The notes under the pieces are model-generated. The model was given only the letters and a program-made list of their open reading frames with translations, was not told where the DNA came from and did no database searches. From an uncultured Arenicella sp. (GTDB taxonomy: Bacteria > Pseudomonadota > Gammaproteobacteria > Arenicellales > Arenicellaceae), in the NCBI GenBank assembly GCA_937918955.1, contig CAKZRZ010000305.1, forward strand, positions 1-37,037: a stretch of 37,037 nt of DNA, given 5' to 3'. The position numbers and the translations under genes are program-made. This document shows, one piece after another, positions 7,100 to 16,464 of this stretch (the first letter of the stretch is position 1; the number at the start of each line of letters is the position of its first letter).

Positions 7100-7134
7100 A
7101 AATAAAGGTAATTACCATTTATCCGGAGTTGAAC

Positions 7135-7854
7135 ATGTTTGTAGGTCACTACGCCGCAAGCTTTGTCGCAAAAGGTCTCGAACCCAGAGCGTCATTGGCT
7201 TTACTATTTATTGCAGCTCAATTTCTTGACTTCGTCTTCTTTCCGCTAGTGCTTTTGGGTGGTGAACAGCTTTCCTTGCTGCCCAACGCGACACAGTCGA
7301 CTCACTTTGAGTTGCCTTTCATGCCTTACTCTCACAGCATCTGGGCGGCAATCTTCTGGAGCACTATTGCGCTTATCATATGTCGATCTTTGTTGAACTT
7401 AAGCCGTACGATATCGCTTCTTGTATGCCTTGTTGTTGGCTCGCATTGGTGGCTAGACCTATTGGTTCATACTCCAGATTTAGCCGTTTGGCGTATTTTC
7501 TCTAGCGATGCAAGTAAATGGAGTTTTAGTCTTTGGAATAATGTTTATCTCTCATTCGCCGCTGAAACATGCCTCCTTTTGCTTTCGGTTGCTTTTTATT
7601 TGAAGAAAACGCACCCTACCAGCAAAGCAGGAAAGTATCTTGTCCCAGCCTTTGCAGCACTATTACTTGTTATCCAAGCCATTAGCAATTTCGCTGACCT
7701 TAACGTTGAGAGCGAGGCCGCCTTCGCGTGGCAAGCAATGACAATGTTTATTGTATTCATTGTTATCGCGAGCATCCTCGATCACCACCGAAGCGGAGGC
7801 CCAGCTAACAATGTGACTACCGAACCACTTAATATAAAAAATAGTAGCCAATAG
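7135..7854 (+). CDS. Membrane protein related to YdjM/DUF457-type putative metal-dependent hydrolases
   Basis: The chosen ATG at 7135 has GGAG about seven bases upstream; the TTG two codons earlier is too close to that site. The 239-residue protein has about six or seven hydrophobic segments. Conserved polar residues lie in or near the membrane: His5 in GHYAA, Asp32 in QFLDF, His67 in PYSHSIW, and His104, Asp108 and His112 in SHWWLDLLVHTPD. This pattern fits the inner-membrane family annotated as metal-dependent hydrolases, whose real activity is mostly untested. The family name is from memory of such motifs, so the assignment is moderate. It ends 125 bp before the response regulator and has its own promoter. 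Confidence 0.6.
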   Translation: MFVGHYAASFVAKGLEPRASLALLFIAAQFLDFVFFPLVLLGGEQLSLLPNATQSTHFELPFMPYSHSIWAAIFWSTIALIICRSLLNLSRTISLLVCLVVGSHWWLDLLVHTPDLAVWRIFSSDASKWSFSLWNNVYLSFAAETCLLLLSVAFYLKKTHPTSKAGKYLVPAFAALLLVIQAISNFADLNVESEAAFAWQAMTMFIVFIVIASILDHHRSGGPANNVTTEPLNIKNSSQ

Positions 7855-7922: not shown

Positions 7923-7979
7923 TAGCGACCTAAACGACAGTTGATTGACTCCCCCCTTAGGAAAGATAAAAATACACCC

Positions 7980-8609
7980 ATGAATATTCTTATAATCGAC
8001 GACCACCGAATTTTCTCGGCTGGACTCGAGTTCCTGCTTGACGGCATCAGCGACAATAATGTGATCACCACCGAGGTGAGTTGCGAAGACGTCCTACGCA
8101 ACAAAGACAATATGGTCGCACCCGACTTGATTCTACTTGACTACAACCTACCTAATTCATATGGAGAACAAAGCTTAACTCTAATCAAGGAAGCATTTCC
8201 TTCTTCTATTGTTGTCATTATTTCAAGTGAAGAATCACACGCAATCATTCATTCTATGATTGAAGGTGGTGCTGCGGGGTACATACCTAAGTCGTCAGAA
8301 CCAAAGTTGCTAGAACATGCGTTAAATCTAGTTTTGGCAGGTGGAGTGTATCTTCCACCACAAGCTTTTGACACGCTCGGTCGACGAATCCAAATGCCTG
8401 AAACTCGATCGTTAACTGAAAGACAAGAGCAAGTTCTGCGAGGTGCGGTGTCTGGTAAAACGAATAAAGTCATCGCATTAGAGTTGGACATCGCCGAAGG
8501 CACAGTCAAATCTCACCTCTCATCAGCCTATGAGTGCATGGGTGTGAACAACAGAACTGAAGCCGTATTGGTCGCTGCCAAATTTGGGATTGGCAATCCG
8601 ATTCAATAA
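7980..8609 (+). CDS. NarL/FixJ family two-component response regulator
   Basis: The ATG at 7980 is preferred over a TTG at 7941 because the receiver domain begins at once (MNILIIDDHR). The 209-residue protein has a receiver domain with the acidic pair at residues 7-8, phospho-acceptor Asp54 in LILLDYNL and the conserved Lys104 in YIPKSS. A LuxR-type helix-turn-helix follows at about 145-200 (LTERQEQVLRGAVSGKTNK, GTVKSHL). It should bind DNA as a dimer when phosphorylated. The hybrid kinase gene starts 32 bp later on the same strand and is the likely partner. The TGAACT palindrome upstream is a candidate binding site. This is a DNA-binding output regulator, not a stand-alone receiver. Confidence 0.92.
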   Translation: MNILIIDDHRIFSAGLEFLLDGISDNNVITTEVSCEDVLRNKDNMVAPDLILLDYNLPNSYGEQSLTLIKEAFPSSIVVIISSEESHAIIHSMIEGGAAGYIPKSSEPKLLEHALNLVLAGGVYLPPQAFDTLGRRIQMPETRSLTERQEQVLRGAVSGKTNKVIALELDIAEGTVKSHLSSAYECMGVNNRTEAVLVAAKFGIGNPIQ

Positions 8610-8641: not shown

Positions 8642-10471
8642 ATGACTAACACTGATGTCAAACATGCGACCTCTGACGAGGAAGTCGTATCACGCCTCGA
8701 TAGCACTCAACGCTTAGACGCGTTTGAGGAAGAAATACTTTCTGCAAAGGCTCAACCAGCGGTAGGTGTGGTTATATCGTTGATGATCATCACTCTTTTG
8801 ATCAGCTACTTCGCCTACGATTCAGTGCCCACATTGGTGTGGTCGATCTGGCTTATTGCCATGATCTTGACCATGCCTGCACGCTTGTTTGTTCAGCGGA
8901 AATTCGATACGGATAAATCGATTCCGCTTCAAAAGCGAATGCGCTACTCTACCTTAATAAACCTTGGGATCGGCTTAGTACACGGCGCGTCGTTTTTTTT
9001 CTTTCCTTATTTTGATTTCGCCGAACGCATGATTCAAACCATCGTGTTTTTAGGCTTGACCAATGGCTCAATTAGCACAAACTCTGGTTACAAACCATTC
9101 TTCCTTGGCTACTCTGCTCCCGTTGCCTTAGGTTTAACCCTTGCATGGGCACTAACCCCGGTCGGCGAAGGTTCACTGCTTATACAGTTCGGCGTAACCG
9201 CACTAAACTTAGTTTACTACGCAATACAGTACTCCAACGCATCGAATCATTTCAGACTGTTCAAAGAATCGTATGAAATTCGTGAACAGCAAGCATCATT
9301 GAATCAGGTACTTAAGAAAAAGAACAAAGAACTTGATCACGCCCTCAACGCGGCAGTTCAAGCACGCCAAGAAGCAGACCAAGCAAGCACCTCAAAGACC
9401 CGTTTTCTTGCCTCGGCCAGCCATGATTTGAGACAGCCTACTCATGCGTTATCTTTGCTAGCTGGCGTATTGTCAAATCGCTCTCTGGATGAAAAGAGCA
9501 AGGCCATCGCACAAGACATACATACAGCAAGTCAGAGTTTGCAGTCTCTGATGAGTGGTTTACTGGACATCTCAAGATTAGATGCCGGCCTGATGGAACC
9601 AAAGGTTGAATCTGTTGATCTACATTGGCTGGTTTCACGCGTTTGCTCCGAATATCAAGCTGATTGCGATAGCAAAGGCTTGCGTCTAGTTTTCTCCAGT
9701 AGTCAGAAAAATGCGACGACCCGCGTGGACCCTCAACTTACTGAGCGCATCTTAAGCAACTTGGTCTCCAACGCTGTTAAATATACCGACGAAGGACATA
9801 TCGAGGTCAGCCTAGGTGAGACCGCTGGGCAATGGCAGATTCAGATTCAAGACACTGGCCATGGCATTAAGGAAGATGAGCAAAAACGCATCTTCGAAGA
9901 GTTCTACCAAATTGGTAACGATCACCGTGATCGCTCAAACGGTTTAGGTTTAGGCCTTGCGATCGTTAAACGCTTGACTACTGCGCTTAATATTGACCTA
10001 AGTTTTAGCTCTACATACGGAAAAGGCTCTACTTTTTCTTTTTCTCTTCCGAAAGTAGACGCTAAATCCGAGGTAAGCCAGGACGTCGAGCAAGCGGAAA
10101 TATTAAGTGGTTTGCACATTCTTTGTGTCGATGACGAAGCTGATATTCGCCGAGCACTTGAACTCGTATTCGAAGTCTTGGGCTGCTCATTTGACTTGGT
10201 TGAAGATACCCAAGCTGCCGCCGAGTCCGCAAAAAATAAAAAGCCCGATATCGTGCTTGCCGACTTTCGTTTAAAAGCCGACGATAATGGAATCAAAACA
10301 ATCGATGCGGTGCGAAACATCTACCCGAATATACCAGCCTTACTGGTAACCGGCGACACCTCGCCAGAACGACTAAAACATGCCAGCAACGCTGGAATAG
10401 AAATGTTGCACAAACCCCTAACCATGGAAAAACTTGCGCGCTCTGTTGGAGAAGCAGTGGCAAAACATTAA
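8642..10471 (+). CDS. Hybrid sensor histidine kinase with membrane N-terminus and C-terminal receiver
   Basis: The 609-residue protein has an N-terminal membrane region (about residues 40-200, five or six helices, little periplasmic sequence). A coiled-coil linker (about 210-250) follows, then HisKA with phospho-acceptor His261 in SASHDLRQPTHAL. The HATPase domain has N box NLVSNAVKYT, G1 box DTGHGI and G2 box GLGLGLAIV. A receiver domain from about 491 has the acidic pair in CVDDE, acceptor Asp541 in VLADFRL and the lysine in LHKPL. With few residues outside the membrane it probably senses something in or at the membrane. It lies 32 bp after the response regulator and 23 bp before the giant enzyme gene. 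The C-terminal receiver may tune kinase or phosphatase activity toward the separate regulator. Confidence 0.93.
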   Translation: MTNTDVKHATSDEEVVSRLDSTQRLDAFEEEILSAKAQPAVGVVISLMIITLLISYFAYDSVPTLVWSIWLIAMILTMPARLFVQRKFDTDKSIPLQKRMRYSTLINLGIGLVHGASFFFFPYFDFAERMIQTIVFLGLTNGSISTNSGYKPFFLGYSAPVALGLTLAWALTPVGEGSLLIQFGVTALNLVYYAIQYSNASNHFRLFKESYEIREQQASLNQVLKKKNKELDHALNAAVQARQEADQASTSKTRFLASASHDLRQPTHALSLLAGVLSNRSLDEKSKAIAQDIHTASQSLQSLMSGLLDISRLDAGLMEPKVESVDLHWLVSRVCSEYQADCDSKGLRLVFSSSQKNATTRVDPQLTERILSNLVSNAVKYTDEGHIEVSLGETAGQWQIQIQDTGHGIKEDEQKRIFEEFYQIGNDHRDRSNGLGLGLAIVKRLTTALNIDLSFSSTYGKGSTFSFSLPKVDAKSEVSQDVEQAEILSGLHILCVDDEADIRRALELVFEVLGCSFDLVEDTQAAAESAKNKKPDIVLADFRLKADDNGIKTIDAVRNIYPNIPALLVTGDTSPERLKHASNAGIEMLHKPLTMEKLARSVGEAVAKH

Positions 10472-10494: not shown

Positions 10495-13400
10495 ATGGGT
10501 AAACAGGGTTGCAAAAGGGGTTCTTTGGAGTCTCAAAATCAAAACACTGACGTCGCACGATCCAAGGTAGAAAACAACGATCGTCAGTATTCAGCATTAC
10601 AATCTAAAGCTTGGCTCTCTAACGGTATTGAGCTTTTATTCGAGCGCAACGGTCTTAATAAAAACGGAAAACCATTCGATGTCGTTATTGTTGGTAGCGG
10701 CTATGGGGGCTCTATTGCTGCCGCCGAGTTGAGTAAAGCTCACGAGCTTGGGTTATCCATTTGTCTGCTCGAGCGTGGGCGAGAGTTTCTGCCAGGGGCA
10801 TTCCCTACTTCGATCGAAGAGGCTCCAACTGAGTTCAGAACAACGCCCTATTCAGGCGCTAAACCAAAGGGCAATCTAGAAGGCCTCTATGATATTCGCT
10901 TAGGCAACGATCTAAATATCGTTCTTTCCAATGGCTTAGGAGGAGGTTCTCTTATTAATGCCGGAGTCATGCAGAGAGCGAACGATGAAGTTTTTGAGAA
11001 TAATCATTGGCCATCACAGATCAATGGCAAGTCCCTCGAACCCTACTACGGTAAAGCCGAAGTCGCCCTGGGTTCGGTAAACCTAGAGACTGACGGTAAA
11101 CGGATTGATAATACAATTGAGCGGCATGAGAGCTTTAGCGATAACACAGGGCCTTCGAAATACGAGTCTCTCAAAAAGCTTGCCTTAGGCACTAACAAGT
11201 TTCGCAATACCAATATCACCGTTAATATGATCGAAGGCCAGCAAACTTCGGCTGGACTGGCATTGAATGCTTGTAATCTATGCGGCGACTGTGCCTCAGG
11301 TTGCAACAATAATTCAAAGATATCTCTTGATAAAAACCTAATCGTCGAAGCGGTAAGAAATGGAGTAGAAGTCTTTACTGGCGCATCGGTACTCAAACTG
11401 AGTCAAACTGAATCAGAGCTCTGGGAAATTGACGTCGTCTATACAGACGCGCAGTTACGAAGTCGACAAGCCGATCCAGTGTTACGTATAAGCTGCCCAA
11501 ACGTAGTGCTCGGTGCTGGCGCCTTGGGTTCAACAGAAATACTAAAACGCTCTGAGTCGGATAAGCTAAAATTTTCAGGGCGACTTGGTCAGAAATTTTC
11601 ATCAAACGGCGACATGCTCGTAGTGGGCTTTGATCAGAATCAGGTAGCTAACGCCATTGCCACCCATGATATCGTACCATCAAAACGAGGCATCGGACCT
11701 ACCATTACTGGCATGATTGACTTCCGTGATGAGTCAGTCTCGGGGCAACGCATTGTAATTCAAGAAATGGCTGTTCCCGCTCCTGCTAGCCATTTCTTTA
11801 GTGAGCTTTACGGAACAGTCAATTCAGTTCAAACTCTTTGGCGTTCTGATAAAACAGCGCATCAACATGATTCAAATTTTGACGACCATGCGGCACTAAG
11901 CAAGAAAGCACTAAAGCATACTTCTGTATATGCGGTCATGGGTAATGACGGTGCTAAAGGAAAGTTATCATTCAAATCTGACGACTATAGATACCACGAG
12001 GGCACAATACAGGTTGACTGGCCAATGCTCAAAGAGCATGAACTTTTTGAGCATCAAATCGACAGCTTAACTGAGTTATCCAATGGCCGCCAAAGTAACT
12101 TAGGAGGCGCAATTTTAAGCAACCCAGTATGGCAGTTGCTAAAGCCCGAGCATATGAACATGATGAAGGCTCAGCGCGGCGCACCGCTAACCGTTCACCC
12201 TCTAGGCGGCTGCCCCATGGGCGAATCGGAAAAAGATGGTGCGACTAATCACCTAGGCCAACCATTCAAACCCAATAGCTCTCATAATTCCAGCGCGGTC
12301 TACAAAGGGCTTGTGGTGCTTGATGGGGCGATAATTCCAGAAGCAGTTGGTATTAATCCCGCATTGACCATTTCGGCAATTGCTTTTAGAGCTGTTGATG
12401 AGTTAATTCAACAAGGCCACTTTACTGAGGTTAAGCGAAATAAACACCTCGAATCGAGTACTAAAAAAGTGGGGAATATAGTTCCGTTTATTCGCTCCTT
12501 TGAAGAACTAGAAGGCCTTTCGAACACTCGAAAAAAAGAAACCCAAGTTCAAATCACTGAGCGTTTAATTGGCTTCAGCAAGTTGGAGAATAATGTAGGG
12601 CAAGTCGTTGACGCTGTCATCGAACTCACTTTATGGTCAAGGCCGATTAGTGTAACGAAGCTAAGCAAATACCGTAACGAAGATAATTGTTCAGCTGTAA
12701 AGCTCGAGATAGATGATGAGCTAGTCGATGAAGTTACACATCAGCCTTTAAGCAAGCTACGCTTATATCTCAAAAGCGACTGGGAGAACCTTAAAAGCGG
12801 AAAGATAAAAGTCGACAAGCATGAAATCGCCCTCGACCAAGCTGCAAAGTTTGTTGGCCAAATCGAAGGCCATTTAACCGCATTTGCTCGAGCAGAGTCT
12901 TACCCACTCTCACGCATAATTGAAAGCGGTTGGGGCTGGATGCTCAATAGAGGCTTGCGAGATTTGTATCAATTCTTTCGTCCGAGACAGTGGGAGAATT
13001 TTGATAGTGAACCCCAAGCAAAACAACGTAGACAGAAAAATCTGTTTACTCGCCTGGCAAACCTCGGGCGCACACTTAGCCGAGCAGGAGAAATTCGCAC
13101 GCTCAATTACGACATTACAATAAAGACTCAGCTTAAAAGTGATGACTTCGGCTATTTCGGGCCCGATGGTAACTCCGACTTATCAGCTCCGAACAATAAA
13201 ATTATTGGCGTCAAGAAACTAACCTATGAACGGCGAGCCAACCCATGGAGTCAATTGGCCCAAGTTTCATTGCAAAAACTTCCTCAACGCAGCCGAGCAA
13301 AAGAACGTGGCTTACGCTTAACACCACCAAGATCTGCGTACCAGCAACTGGAAATACAACAGAGAAATTTAGCTCGACAAGGCAACACGCTTGCTCTCGA

Positions 13401-16400
13401 TATGAATTATCTAACTAAAGCCGGTACGCCGTTAATTCGAATCACACAACAACAGAATCAAGTCAAAGCATTAATGGATCTCGCATCTTTTGGCTCGTAC
13501 ATCACTCGCATGTTGCTTGGAGTTCACTTCTATAGTTTTAGAGCGCCTGACGCGCCAAAGCCGCGACAAGCAATGCGACTGGCTGGCACTGTAAATGGAC
13601 TGCCAGAACCAACTATTCATCGTTTAAGAGTTGATGAAATCCCTGACAATCGCATCAAAGGGTTACAAGCGGGGCAAGCGGTGGAAATAATTCTTACCCA
13701 TTATCGGAACGATCAAGCCACAAAAGCGCCCGTGATGATGCTGCACGGTTACAGCGACAATAGCGCTCTTTTTGCGCATTCATCGATGCCAAATAGTCTC
13801 GCGAAAGTGATGTATCAAAACAGCCGTGATGTTTGGTTAGTTGACCTGCGCACGAGTTCAGCGCTAACGAGCTCAAGGTATCCATGGAAATTTGAGACCG
13901 TTTCGAATATCGATATACCAAGCGCTGTCGAATATATTCATGCGCACTACGAAAGAAAAAATAAAATAGACGTGCTCGCACATTGCATGGGCGCTGTCAT
14001 GCTGGCTATGTCTATATTAAAGCCGAATAAAGACTCCTCTCAATCTAGAGCAAACTTATCTAATGCAACGATCAATCGTATTGTCTTCTCTCAAGCAACA
14101 CCAACGGTCGTTTTCACACAAGACAACAACTTCAAATCATTCGCCACCAACTACCTAAAGGAGATGATTCCAAATGAGTATCAATTCCAAGTACAAGATG
14201 GCCGAAAAGCTAACCAAATTCTTGATCGGCTATTATATACGCTACCCTACCCGCGTCACGAATTTGACATTGTCAATGCTCCATTAAAACCTTCCCATCG
14301 AGCCGAGTTCGCCCGCACACGCCACCGCGTAGACGCGCTATTCTCAAGAACATTCGAATTAGCAAACCTAAGCCCAGCTACGCTTGAGCATATTGACGAT
14401 TTCTTTGGCCCAATGCACTTAGATACAATTGTTCAAGCAAGTCGTTTTGCGCGCTATAACGTCGCTACTGACGCAGATGGAAACAATAGCTATGTCAGCC
14501 GCGAACGCCTCCAGAAGTATTGGAGTGGCATTCCCACTATGAGCTTTCACTCTCGAAGTAATGGCTTGATCGACGTTTCTACTGGCGAACGCACAAGACG
14601 AATCTTCTCGGAGGCGGGTTTAGCTTACACCAGCATTATCATCGACAAAGAGAACTATGGGCATCAGGACTCGATTACCGGGGTAAATGCCCACATTGAT
14701 GTATTTCCTAAGATTATTGAATTCCTAGATGAAAGCAATGAGCAATCAGCAGAACCGTCCAATCTAAATTGCTCCCAAGTTGATCACGCAGCTTGGGTTG
14801 TCGAACCTCCTGCATGTGGGCCCGTCATAATTCAACATAATGATGGGCAAAAAACTAAAGTGATGTTAGGTAGCAATACTGCGCGAGCATGCGAGCCGTT
14901 TCTTATCTTCGTTCCCGTATTCTTTAATGACGATCAGTTACACGTCGTTGGTAGCAACACAGAGGAACAACTGCGCATACTGGAACACTATGTCGAACAG
15001 TCTCTGAAAATTAAGAGCGTCCAAAGAGATGACGACTCATCGCGCTGGCGCATCGCTGAAATACCTGACTCGTTTATGACCCAGCCTAAACTCTCGACAA
15101 GTACCCGAATGGATGGTTTGGCTGCGTTAATGATTTATGACGATCTAGTTGAGCTTGATGTTGATCTCGTTGTTAGTTCACGCTGCAAAACAGATGAACG
15201 CGATTGCGCTTCCGTCTTATATACAGCGAATGAATATGAGCAACACGATTTACAAAAAGTTGTTGCTCAAGTTGTCGGAAATTTCTTTAAATCGAACCGA
15301 AATGTCCTCGTCGAGTTCGAGAAAAGTGTTATCGGCTACAAACCACAGGCCAACGAAGATAGACCGTTGTGCTTTGCGATAGGGAGTTGCCAATATCCTG
15401 CGGGGATGCTCGATAAAGAGGTCGCCTATGATTCCTATAAAAAAATGAGTCACTTACTTGACTCTCAGGCATCATTCAAACCCCAGTTTCTCGCCTTAAT
15501 AGGAGACCAGATTTACGCTGATGCTACCGCGGGTTTCCTGGACCCGATCACCAAGTTCGACCGTTTCGTACAACCTTATTATCAATTGTACAAAAATAAA
15601 AATGTTCGATCCGTCTTACGCAGGCTGCCGCTGTTTGCCATGCTTGATGACCATGAACTCTCAGACAATTGGGAACCGCTTACGAATAATGTAAAAAAGC
15701 AACGCGAACTCGATGAAACTCTCAGAGCAGGAGTCGACTCGTTTCTAAAATTTCAAAGAGGAGAAATTCGCGACCTCGATAAATCAGAAGGTAAAGATAC
15801 GCCTCTTTGGTACTCTTTCACATTCAGTGAACACAAATTTTTCATGTTAGACACACGTACTGAGCGTAGCGCTCGAAACGCATCTAATATTTTAGATTCT
15901 GAAACAACTATTATTAGTGAAAACCAACATAAAGCCTTTGAAAACTGGTTGCTTCGTTCAAATAATCAAAAACCAAAATTTATTCTCTCGAGCTCAATTT
16001 TGTTACCGAGGCACGCAATGAATCATGCAAGTGAAAACTCCGCGGCAAATTGCGTTCGATCGGATGGATGGGACGGCTACCCGGTCTCACTCCATAAAAC
16101 ACTTGCTCTGATCGTTGACAAGCAAGTGGATAATCTAGTTTTCTTATCTGGAGATGAACATATTGGCTGCTACGCCGAAATAGAGATACATAACCTAGAA
16201 ACAGGTAATTCAATTTCGACTGTATCGGCTCACTGCCCAGGGTTGTACACGCCATTTCCATTTGCAAATGCTCGAACTGACGATTTTGAAGGTGATATCG
16301 ACGATACAACCAAGCAATCAATCAGCCGATTCAATTTCGAGCATGACGGTGTTTGTTACCGATGTGAAGTGCGAGCTAAATTCGATATAAAGTCAGATAC

Positions 16401-16464
16401 GATTCATCTCGGGCCGATAGAAATTGAACTTTGCGGGGGATTTCTCAACATAAAGACTATTTGA
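10495..16464 (+). CDS. Giant fusion: GMC oxidoreductase, alpha/beta hydrolase and PhoD-like phosphatase
   Basis: This 1989-residue protein joins three enzyme modules in one unbroken frame. Residues 60-650 are a GMC (glucose-methanol-choline) FAD oxidoreductase of the cholesterol oxidase type: VGSGYGGS at 66-73, a cysteine cluster C260, C263, C266 and C270, and the active-site pair His568 (HPLGGCPMG) and Asn621 (NPALT). Residues 650-1075 are not recognised. Residues 1080-1430 are an alpha/beta hydrolase: oxyanion motif LHGYSDN at 1083, nucleophile elbow AHCMGA with Cys1164 in the serine position, Asp1360 and His1390. Residues 1620-1989 are a PhoD-like metallophosphatase: GDQIYAD with Asp1671, DDHE with Asp1718, Asp1719 and His1720, and SGDEH with His1889. 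No signal peptide is seen. It is closely spaced after the hybrid kinase gene (23 bp). Sterol-like, hydroxylated or ester lipid substrates are plausible but unproven. Confidence 0.88.
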   Translation: MGKQGCKRGSLESQNQNTDVARSKVENNDRQYSALQSKAWLSNGIELLFERNGLNKNGKPFDVVIVGSGYGGSIAAAELSKAHELGLSICLLERGREFLPGAFPTSIEEAPTEFRTTPYSGAKPKGNLEGLYDIRLGNDLNIVLSNGLGGGSLINAGVMQRANDEVFENNHWPSQINGKSLEPYYGKAEVALGSVNLETDGKRIDNTIERHESFSDNTGPSKYESLKKLALGTNKFRNTNITVNMIEGQQTSAGLALNACNLCGDCASGCNNNSKISLDKNLIVEAVRNGVEVFTGASVLKLSQTESELWEIDVVYTDAQLRSRQADPVLRISCPNVVLGAGALGSTEILKRSESDKLKFSGRLGQKFSSNGDMLVVGFDQNQVANAIATHDIVPSKRGIGPTITGMIDFRDESVSGQRIVIQEMAVPAPASHFFSELYGTVNSVQTLWRSDKTAHQHDSNFDDHAALSKKALKHTSVYAVMGNDGAKGKLSFKSDDYRYHEGTIQVDWPMLKEHELFEHQIDSLTELSNGRQSNLGGAILSNPVWQLLKPEHMNMMKAQRGAPLTVHPLGGCPMGESEKDGATNHLGQPFKPNSSHNSSAVYKGLVVLDGAIIPEAVGINPALTISAIAFRAVDELIQQGHFTEVKRNKHLESSTKKVGNIVPFIRSFEELEGLSNTRKKETQVQITERLIGFSKLENNVGQVVDAVIELTLWSRPISVTKLSKYRNEDNCSAVKLEIDDELVDEVTHQPLSKLRLYLKSDWENLKSGKIKVDKHEIALDQAAKFVGQIEGHLTAFARAESYPLSRIIESGWGWMLNRGLRDLYQFFRPRQWENFDSEPQAKQRRQKNLFTRLANLGRTLSRAGEIRTLNYDITIKTQLKSDDFGYFGPDGNSDLSAPNNKIIGVKKLTYERRANPWSQLAQVSLQKLPQRSRAKERGLRLTPPRSAYQQLEIQQRNLARQGNTLALDMNYLTKAGTPLIRITQQQNQVKALMDLASFGSYITRMLLGVHFYSFRAPDAPKPRQAMRLAGTVNGLPEPTIHRLRVDEIPDNRIKGLQAGQAVEIILTHYRNDQATKAPVMMLHGYSDNSALFAHSSMPNSLAKVMYQNSRDVWLVDLRTSSALTSSRYPWKFETVSNIDIPSAVEYIHAHYERKNKIDVLAHCMGAVMLAMSILKPNKDSSQSRANLSNATINRIVFSQATPTVVFTQDNNFKSFATNYLKEMIPNEYQFQVQDGRKANQILDRLLYTLPYPRHEFDIVNAPLKPSHRAEFARTRHRVDALFSRTFELANLSPATLEHIDDFFGPMHLDTIVQASRFARYNVATDADGNNSYVSRERLQKYWSGIPTMSFHSRSNGLIDVSTGERTRRIFSEAGLAYTSIIIDKENYGHQDSITGVNAHIDVFPKIIEFLDESNEQSAEPSNLNCSQVDHAAWVVEPPACGPVIIQHNDGQKTKVMLGSNTARACEPFLIFVPVFFNDDQLHVVGSNTEEQLRILEHYVEQSLKIKSVQRDDDSSRWRIAEIPDSFMTQPKLSTSTRMDGLAALMIYDDLVELDVDLVVSSRCKTDERDCASVLYTANEYEQHDLQKVVAQVVGNFFKSNRNVLVEFEKSVIGYKPQANEDRPLCFAIGSCQYPAGMLDKEVAYDSYKKMSHLLDSQASFKPQFLALIGDQIYADATAGFLDPITKFDRFVQPYYQLYKNKNVRSVLRRLPLFAMLDDHELSDNWEPLTNNVKKQRELDETLRAGVDSFLKFQRGEIRDLDKSEGKDTPLWYSFTFSEHKFFMLDTRTERSARNASNILDSETTIISENQHKAFENWLLRSNNQKPKFILSSSILLPRHAMNHASENSAANCVRSDGWDGYPVSLHKTLALIVDKQVDNLVFLSGDEHIGCYAEIEIHNLETGNSISTVSAHCPGLYTPFPFANARTDDFEGDIDDTTKQSISRFNFEHDGVCYRCEVRAKFDIKSDTIHLGPIEIELCGGFLNIKTI

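Follow-up and report, generated by a model that had tools for sequence, protein, structure and literature searches.

A conserved three-module fusion of a GMC oxidoreductase, a cysteine-type alpha/beta hydrolase and a PhoD-like phosphodiesterase in Arenicella and other Proteobacteria

Introduction

A single gene in a 37,037-nucleotide stretch of DNA from an uncultured Arenicella sp. (contig CAKZRZ010000305.1; this whole stretch is called the window in the following) encodes three enzyme modules, each of which has described relatives. For the GMC oxidoreductase module these are the cholesterol oxidases of GMC type (e.g. PDB 4u2l), which share the flavin adenine dinucleotide (FAD) motif and the His/Asn catalytic pair, and the FAD-glucose dehydrogenase of B. 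cepacia (BcGDH), a GMC enzyme in which a 3Fe-4S cluster is held by loop cysteines (PMC6719666) and whose partners are a cytochrome and a hitchhiker subunit. For the alpha/beta hydrolase module they are the acid lipases, with a Ser nucleophile, and the polyhydroxyalkanoate (PHA) synthases (PhaC), with a Cys nucleophile in a lipase-like box. The third module resembles B. subtilis PhoD and S. chromofuscus phospholipase D, composed of an N-terminal beta-sandwich and a metallophosphoesterase domain, a subfamily that is typified by an Fe-ligand cysteine (PMC4223295). The same GMC and Cys-hydrolase modules also occur in uncharacterised two-module proteins of ~1130-1190 amino acids, which carry the annotation 'alpha/beta fold hydrolase' or 'GMC oxidoreductase'; they differ from the fusion by the lack of a PhoD part, and a separate phosphoesterase gene often adjoins them.

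The gene under study is:
10495..16464, + strand: three-enzyme fusion gene, 1989 amino acids, ATG start, no signal peptide

The superfamilies are known, their combination is undescribed and two of the catalytic features are unusual; in the literature searched, we found no description of the three-enzyme fusion or of the linked triad. We assign a probability of roughly 0.5 to the proposal that the product is a cytosolic three-enzyme protein that converts one hydrophobic or ester-type metabolite in consecutive steps.

Results and discussion

Integrity and occurrence of the fusion gene

The frame is open over all 1989 codons, without internal stops. When 84,980 species genomes were scanned, one-gene fusions of 1829-2090 amino acids came to light in about 30 proteobacterial genomes, whose hosts are Arenicella, Pseudomaricurvus, Aestuariicella, Halieaceae, Sinimarinibacterium, Fontimonas, Ensifer, Bradyrhizobium, Ruegeria and betaproteobacterial metagenome-assembled genomes (MAGs). 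Isolate genomes with the fused frame include those of Pseudomaricurvus, Ensifer and Ruegeria; in Ensifer the fusion lies on large plasmids, whose annotation calls it 'alpha/beta fold hydrolase' or omits it. The congener G007 has the same fused frame with 79% identity over residues 1-1989, and the congener G002 has it with ~36-38% identity. In a third congener, G008, the PhoD-fused gene is split at two contig ends (L023/L003); the other clade's two-module form is present in this genome too (L027). A divergent three-module fusion of 1957 amino acids with 25% identity lies at L067 567-6440, on a contig labelled Klebsiella pneumoniae, a label that is probably wrong.

Between the window and G007, the ratio of nonsynonymous to synonymous substitution rates (dN/dS) is 0.096 for the whole protein. 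For its parts it is 0.078 (GMC), 0.139 (middle region), 0.116 (PhoD) and, lowest of all modules, 0.042 (hydrolase). The gene is real and, as a whole, under purifying selection. Because the fused frame recurs, dN/dS is low and the catalytic positions are kept, the occurrence of the three-enzyme fusion is far beyond chance. A reading made from the sequence alone (the sequence-only reading) had described the 1989-residue fusion with recognisable catalytic motifs of all three modules in one frame, and both statements hold: the frame is intact, dN/dS is ~0.10, and the sites are kept over the 30 fused proteins on which conservation was scored (residue numbers are those of the window protein). The frameshift or sequencing error that it had named as a possible refutation is ruled out by the recurrence in independent assemblies and by purifying selection.

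Linkage of the three activities in split forms

The linkage of the three activities is a stronger finding than the fusion itself. Close relatives (L038, L056, L062) encode a GMC-hydrolase protein of 1447-1491 amino acids with a separate PhoD gene close behind, and a Desulfobacterales MAG (L092) has a GMC-hydrolase protein of 1133 amino acids and a separate PhoD gene. In Arenicella congeners (L024-L026), the GMC-hydrolase gene overlaps a calcineurin-type phosphoesterase gene by 11 nucleotides. This type also adjoins GMC-hydrolase genes at L108 and L073/L107, with Acidobacteria and Alphaproteobacteria MAGs among the hosts, and in Azospirillum oryzae the two genes are 34 bp apart. A Bacteroidota operon (L068-L110, e.g. 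L090 7643-16556) encodes the hydrolase (337 amino acids), an acetoacetate-decarboxylase-like protein, small membrane proteins of the Anthrone_oxy/DUF4345 type, a patatin, a phosphoesterase (~600 amino acids) and a GMC protein (778 amino acids); part of such an operon is found in Nostoc. The Bacteroidota operon resembles a complete pathway of its own.

By Pfam the four phosphoesterase types are PhoD or Metallophos, and pairwise BLAST comparison of the four gave no significant similarity. PhoD is present in 34 of the 81 complete rows of the comparison and another phosphoesterase in 30; no row has both, and 17 rows have neither. The phosphoesterase type requires 10 changes on the tree, and on the GMC tree the PhoD forms fall into a single supported clade, except for L092, which stands apart. 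Since many of the 81 rows are related, the mutual exclusion of PhoD and other phosphoesterases is suggestive, short of statistical proof.

The conserved unit consists of the GMC module, the Cys hydrolase and a phosphoesterase, and the fusion is one form of this unit. Split forms in which these three activities are encoded next to each other support a single pathway, in line with the stepwise conversion suggested earlier. The fusion shows which three chemistries belong together and thereby provides a testable pathway hypothesis for the split genes of Bacteroidota, Cyanobacteria and others. In its widest form, this hypothesis is a three-step pathway spread over Proteobacteria, Bacteroidota and Cyanobacteria and comprising phosphoester cleavage, alcohol oxidation by an Fe-S flavoenzyme and transfer or cleavage of an acyl group by a Cys enzyme, with the phosphoesterase slot filled independently by four families and with a fused, channelled enzyme in Proteobacteria; we hold it tentatively, at slightly less than even odds. 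If the fusion served co-expression or scaffolding only, with modules acting on unrelated substrates, the rows without a nearby phosphoesterase and the decay of PhoD in Ensifer (see below) would be easily accommodated. This explanation is distinctly improbable, as four different phosphoesterase families are linked to the same GMC-hydrolase pair and operons of different phyla contain this triad.

GMC oxidoreductase module

10660..12429, + strand: GMC flavodehydrogenase module, cholesterol-oxidase-like, residues ~56-645 (Pfam; PDB match 4u2l, 4.5e-17)
11272..11304, + strand: CxxCxxCxxxC cluster, putative Fe-S site, residues 260-270

Pfam places GMC_oxred_N at residues 142-353 (2e-13) and GMC_oxred_C at 556-630 (1e-6), and the nearest solved structures by sequence are cholesterol oxidases. 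His568 and Asn621, which correspond in the alignment to the 4u2l motifs HPLGGC and VNP, are invariant in all 30 fused proteins. The same holds for C260, C263, C266 and C270 (30/30), the position at which the aligned stretch of cholesterol oxidase contains no cysteine. Because of this invariant motif, which cholesterol oxidase lacks, the module is probably an Fe-S flavodehydrogenase. The cysteine cluster of BcGDH, likewise ~200 residues into the flavin domain, has a comparable place (PMC6719666), whereas its spacing (Cys212, 213, 218 and 222) differs from the CxxCxxCxxxC of the fusion.

The similarity to cholesterol oxidases, the best GMC matches, could point to sterol or steroid-ester catabolism, in which a cholesterol-oxidase-like GMC module, a cholesteryl-ester-hydrolase-like hydrolase and a phosphatase would strip and oxidise sterol esters or phosphosterols. 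However, the module scores 122.8 bits with the NCBIfam cholesterol oxidase equivalog NF058674, far below the cut-off of 850, its Cys cluster is missing from cholesterol oxidase, and it is joined to two further enzymes.

Cys-type alpha/beta hydrolase module

13675..14754, + strand: Cys-type alpha/beta hydrolase module, residues ~1061-1420 (alignments, PDB profile matches, PhaC comparison)
13984-13986, + strand: codon of the nucleophile Cys1164 (30/30 fused proteins)
14662-14664, + strand: codon of His1390 (30/30 fused proteins)

Abhydrolase_6 at residues 1082-1172 remains under the Pfam cut-off in the window protein (0.004), and Abhydrolase_1 passes it in the G002 homologue (36% identical). Among PDB entries, the hydrolase profile matches gastric and lysosomal acid lipases best (down to 4e-17). 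The fold and catalytic site described from the sequence alone are thus retained, with one correction: the nucleophile is an invariant cysteine. The HC-x-G motif at 1163-1166 places it at Cys1164, which is Cys in 40/40 aligned sequences, stand-alone hydrolases included, and a lipase-type Ser nucleophile occurs in none of these 40. The usual acid position is taken by Asn1356, placed by sequence alignment only and Asn in 29/30 fused proteins. With Cys instead of Ser, transfer of an acyl group or thioester chemistry is favoured no less than simple hydrolysis. If true, an Fe-S GMC dehydrogenase and a Cys-type relative of acid lipases in one chain would represent new enzymology. A stand-alone Cys-type hydrolase also lies behind a two-module gene at L106 9286-10427, in two overlapping frames, possibly owing to a frameshift.

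The family was found in 12/397 Pseudomonadota genomes (even draw, E 1e-30) and is therefore uncommon; it is also present in Bacteroidota, Nostoc and Paenibacillus. For the sterol explanation, the profile match to lysosomal acid lipase/cholesteryl ester hydrolase (1.6e-13) is a further argument, but the nucleophile is Cys and not the lipase Ser, the family reaches into the three groups just named, and no sterol-degradation genes were recognised among the scanned window proteins or the scanned recurrent neighbour families. With the evidence from the GMC module, this makes sterol catabolism rather improbable. The sequence-only reading had named a sterol ester or a phospholipid as examples of a complex-lipid substrate; this part of the reading is conjectural.

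The Cys nucleophile is also compatible with a place in PHA or hydroxyacid metabolism, the hydrolase being PHA-synthase- or transacylase-like and the GMC module oxidising hydroxyacyl products. PHA synthase appears among the PDB profile matches (8e-4), hhalign aligns the hydrolase to class III PhaC with E 1e-6 and the Cys in register, and class III phaC/phaE genes lie near two-module GMC-hydrolase genes at L086 81-2922 (Cytophagales MAG) and L122 315-2055 (Rhizobium leguminosarum plasmid). Among the fetched genome loci, phaC/phaE occurred at L086 only, plus this one Rhizobium plasmid, and both loci are of the non-fused type. Moreover, PhaC has its catalytic Asp after beta-7 where the fusion has Asn1356, PhaC models were not among the NCBIfam matches to the hydrolase at E 0.01, and the phosphoesterase would be left without explanation. 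We therefore regard PHA or hydroxyacid metabolism as an unlikely explanation.

PhoD module

14785..15339, + strand: PhoD/purple-acid-phosphatase-type N-terminal beta-sandwich, residues ~1431-1615 (structure model, 2yeq alignment)
15340..16464, + strand: PhoD phosphodiesterase catalytic domain, residues ~1616-1989 (Fe-ligand-type Cys1632)

Pfam PhoD (PF09423) matches residues 1628-1897 with 1e-28 and 100.9 bits, against a gathering score of 27. The site, consisting of the Cys Fe ligand and the conserved Asp/His residues, is complete in the window protein; Cys1632, Asp1676, Asp1718 and Asp1719 are present in 30/30 fused proteins and the other PhoD site positions in 27-29/30. As judged by alignment, Cys1632 is the counterpart of the cysteine that serves as Fe ligand in the B. 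subtilis PhoD/S. chromofuscus phospholipase D subfamily. The PhoD part of the fusion differs from these enzymes in its C-terminal position, the absence of a signal peptide and an identity of 18% in the structural alignment, and it scores 47.1 bits with the bacterial alkaline phosphatase PhoD equivalog NF058638, whose cut-off is 1000.

Two regions had been left unassigned in the sequence-only reading, and one of them can now be placed. The structure model of residues 1426-1989 (pLDDT 84.9, pTM 0.88) aligns with B. subtilis PhoD (2yeq) with Z 25.6 over 395 residues and a root-mean-square deviation of 3.7. Since this alignment spans model residues 8-564, i.e. the whole length, residues 1430-1615 can be assigned to a PhoD-type N-terminal beta-sandwich that is part of the PhoD unit.

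The loss of active-site residues in homologues, which the earlier reading had regarded as a possible refutation, was encountered in one module only. The sites are generally kept, and they are lost in PhoD of three Ensifer genomes that have kept the fusion:
L045 7941-13742; L052 7971-13628; L066 7941-13637: Ensifer fusions with decayed PhoD

In these proteins metal-site residues are replaced (Asp1671 by Gly, His1720 by Gln, and others), so that GDQ reads GGQ and DDHE reads DDQE, and GDEH is altered in two of them. Their GMC and hydrolase sites are intact. The dN/dS of PhoD is 0.16-0.20 in the decayed Ensifer genes versus 0.11 for an intact Ensifer pair.

Middle region

12430..13674, + strand: conserved middle region, predicted beta-rich with helices, residues ~646-1060 (alignment; structure model)

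For this second of the two regions, which is conserved, no known fold was found. There was no consistent Pfam match in 30 members and no convincing PDB sequence match, and searches with the structure model (pLDDT 74.9, pTM 0.68) gave a best E of 0.58 with Foldseek and a best Z of 6.6 with VIA. A weak beta-barrel resemblance, to some lipid-binding barrels among others, is within noise. Because the model is only moderately confident, we do not claim a new fold.

Proposed reaction sequence

In the successive-step proposal, the PhoD module would split a phosphodiester or phosphomonoester and free a hydroxyl group. The GMC module may then oxidise this or another alcohol, and FAD would hand the electrons via the Fe-S cluster to an acceptor (membrane or protein) and not to oxygen. 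The Cys hydrolase would form an acyl-enzyme and cleave the acyl or ester portion or transfer it. The sequence of these steps is a guess. Intracellular catabolism or remodelling of a lipid or hydroxyacyl ester (storage-lipid or PHA-like) appears as the most likely pathway, the nature of the substrate being our inference. Three observations favour lipids: the hydrolase has lipases among its relatives, the Bacteroidota operon encodes a patatin, and several host organisms bear names that refer to hydrocarbon use; PHA or hydroxyacyl esters remain candidates because of the phaC/phaE genes near two relatives. Conserved residues argue for the individual activities and the repeated linkage for a shared substrate, while order and substrate are conjectural.

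Several observations weigh against this proposal. PhoD lost its metal site in the three Ensifer genomes while the fusion was kept, so that it can become dispensable there, and the 17 of 81 rows without a phosphoesterase nearby have to be accounted for. The independent contrasts for the exclusivity of PhoD and other phosphoesterases amount to 3 pairs only and are not significant. The putative Fe-S cluster is deduced from the cysteine motif alone, and the PHA link occurs at only two loci.

Regulatory neighbours and cellular place

7941..8609, + strand: LuxR-type response regulator, ErdR/NarL-like
8642..10471, + strand: hybrid sensor histidine kinase with NahK/ErcS-like C-terminal part, ending 24 nucleotides before the fusion gene
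7129..7854, + strand: membrane protein, family unassigned, also upstream of the fusion in G008 and G002

In the window the response regulator is followed by the hybrid kinase, which leads straight into the fusion gene. The kinase adjoins the fusion in 15/30 fused rows; in Arenicella and Burkholderia it also neighbours the two-module form. ErcS'/ErdR-type regulators control alcohol oxidation in Pseudomonas. The best NCBIfam model is near_NosP_CTERM (NahK/ErcS) for the kinase, with 285.9 against a cut-off of 400, and ErdR for the response regulator, with 112.9 against 390; both proteins thus score below the cut-offs of their best models. In gammaproteobacteria the expression of the fusion is probably controlled by this adjacent ErcS'/ErdR-like two-component system. 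In several alphaproteobacteria it is probably controlled by an adjacent protein of ~1350 amino acids with an adenylate/guanylate cyclase domain, encoded next to the fusion at L040, L041, L043, L044, L046, L050 and L121 (1705-5715).

Known PhoD-family enzymes are extra-cytoplasmic (PMC4223295), which would suit a role in scavenging phosphorus outside the cell, where PhoD would provide the main activity and the remaining modules would be accessories. Hydropathy analysis of the fusion protein revealed no signal peptide, hydrophobic N-terminus or membrane segment, and extracellular phosphate scavenging is unlikely for this reason. In addition, PhoD is swapped for other phosphoesterases while GMC and hydrolase are retained, and the NahK/ErcS model gives the linked kinase a higher score than PhoR does (144.7), so that we consider scavenging very improbable. 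The membrane protein upstream of the regulators has no Pfam match and shares 52% and 39% identity with its counterparts upstream of the fusion in the two congeners.

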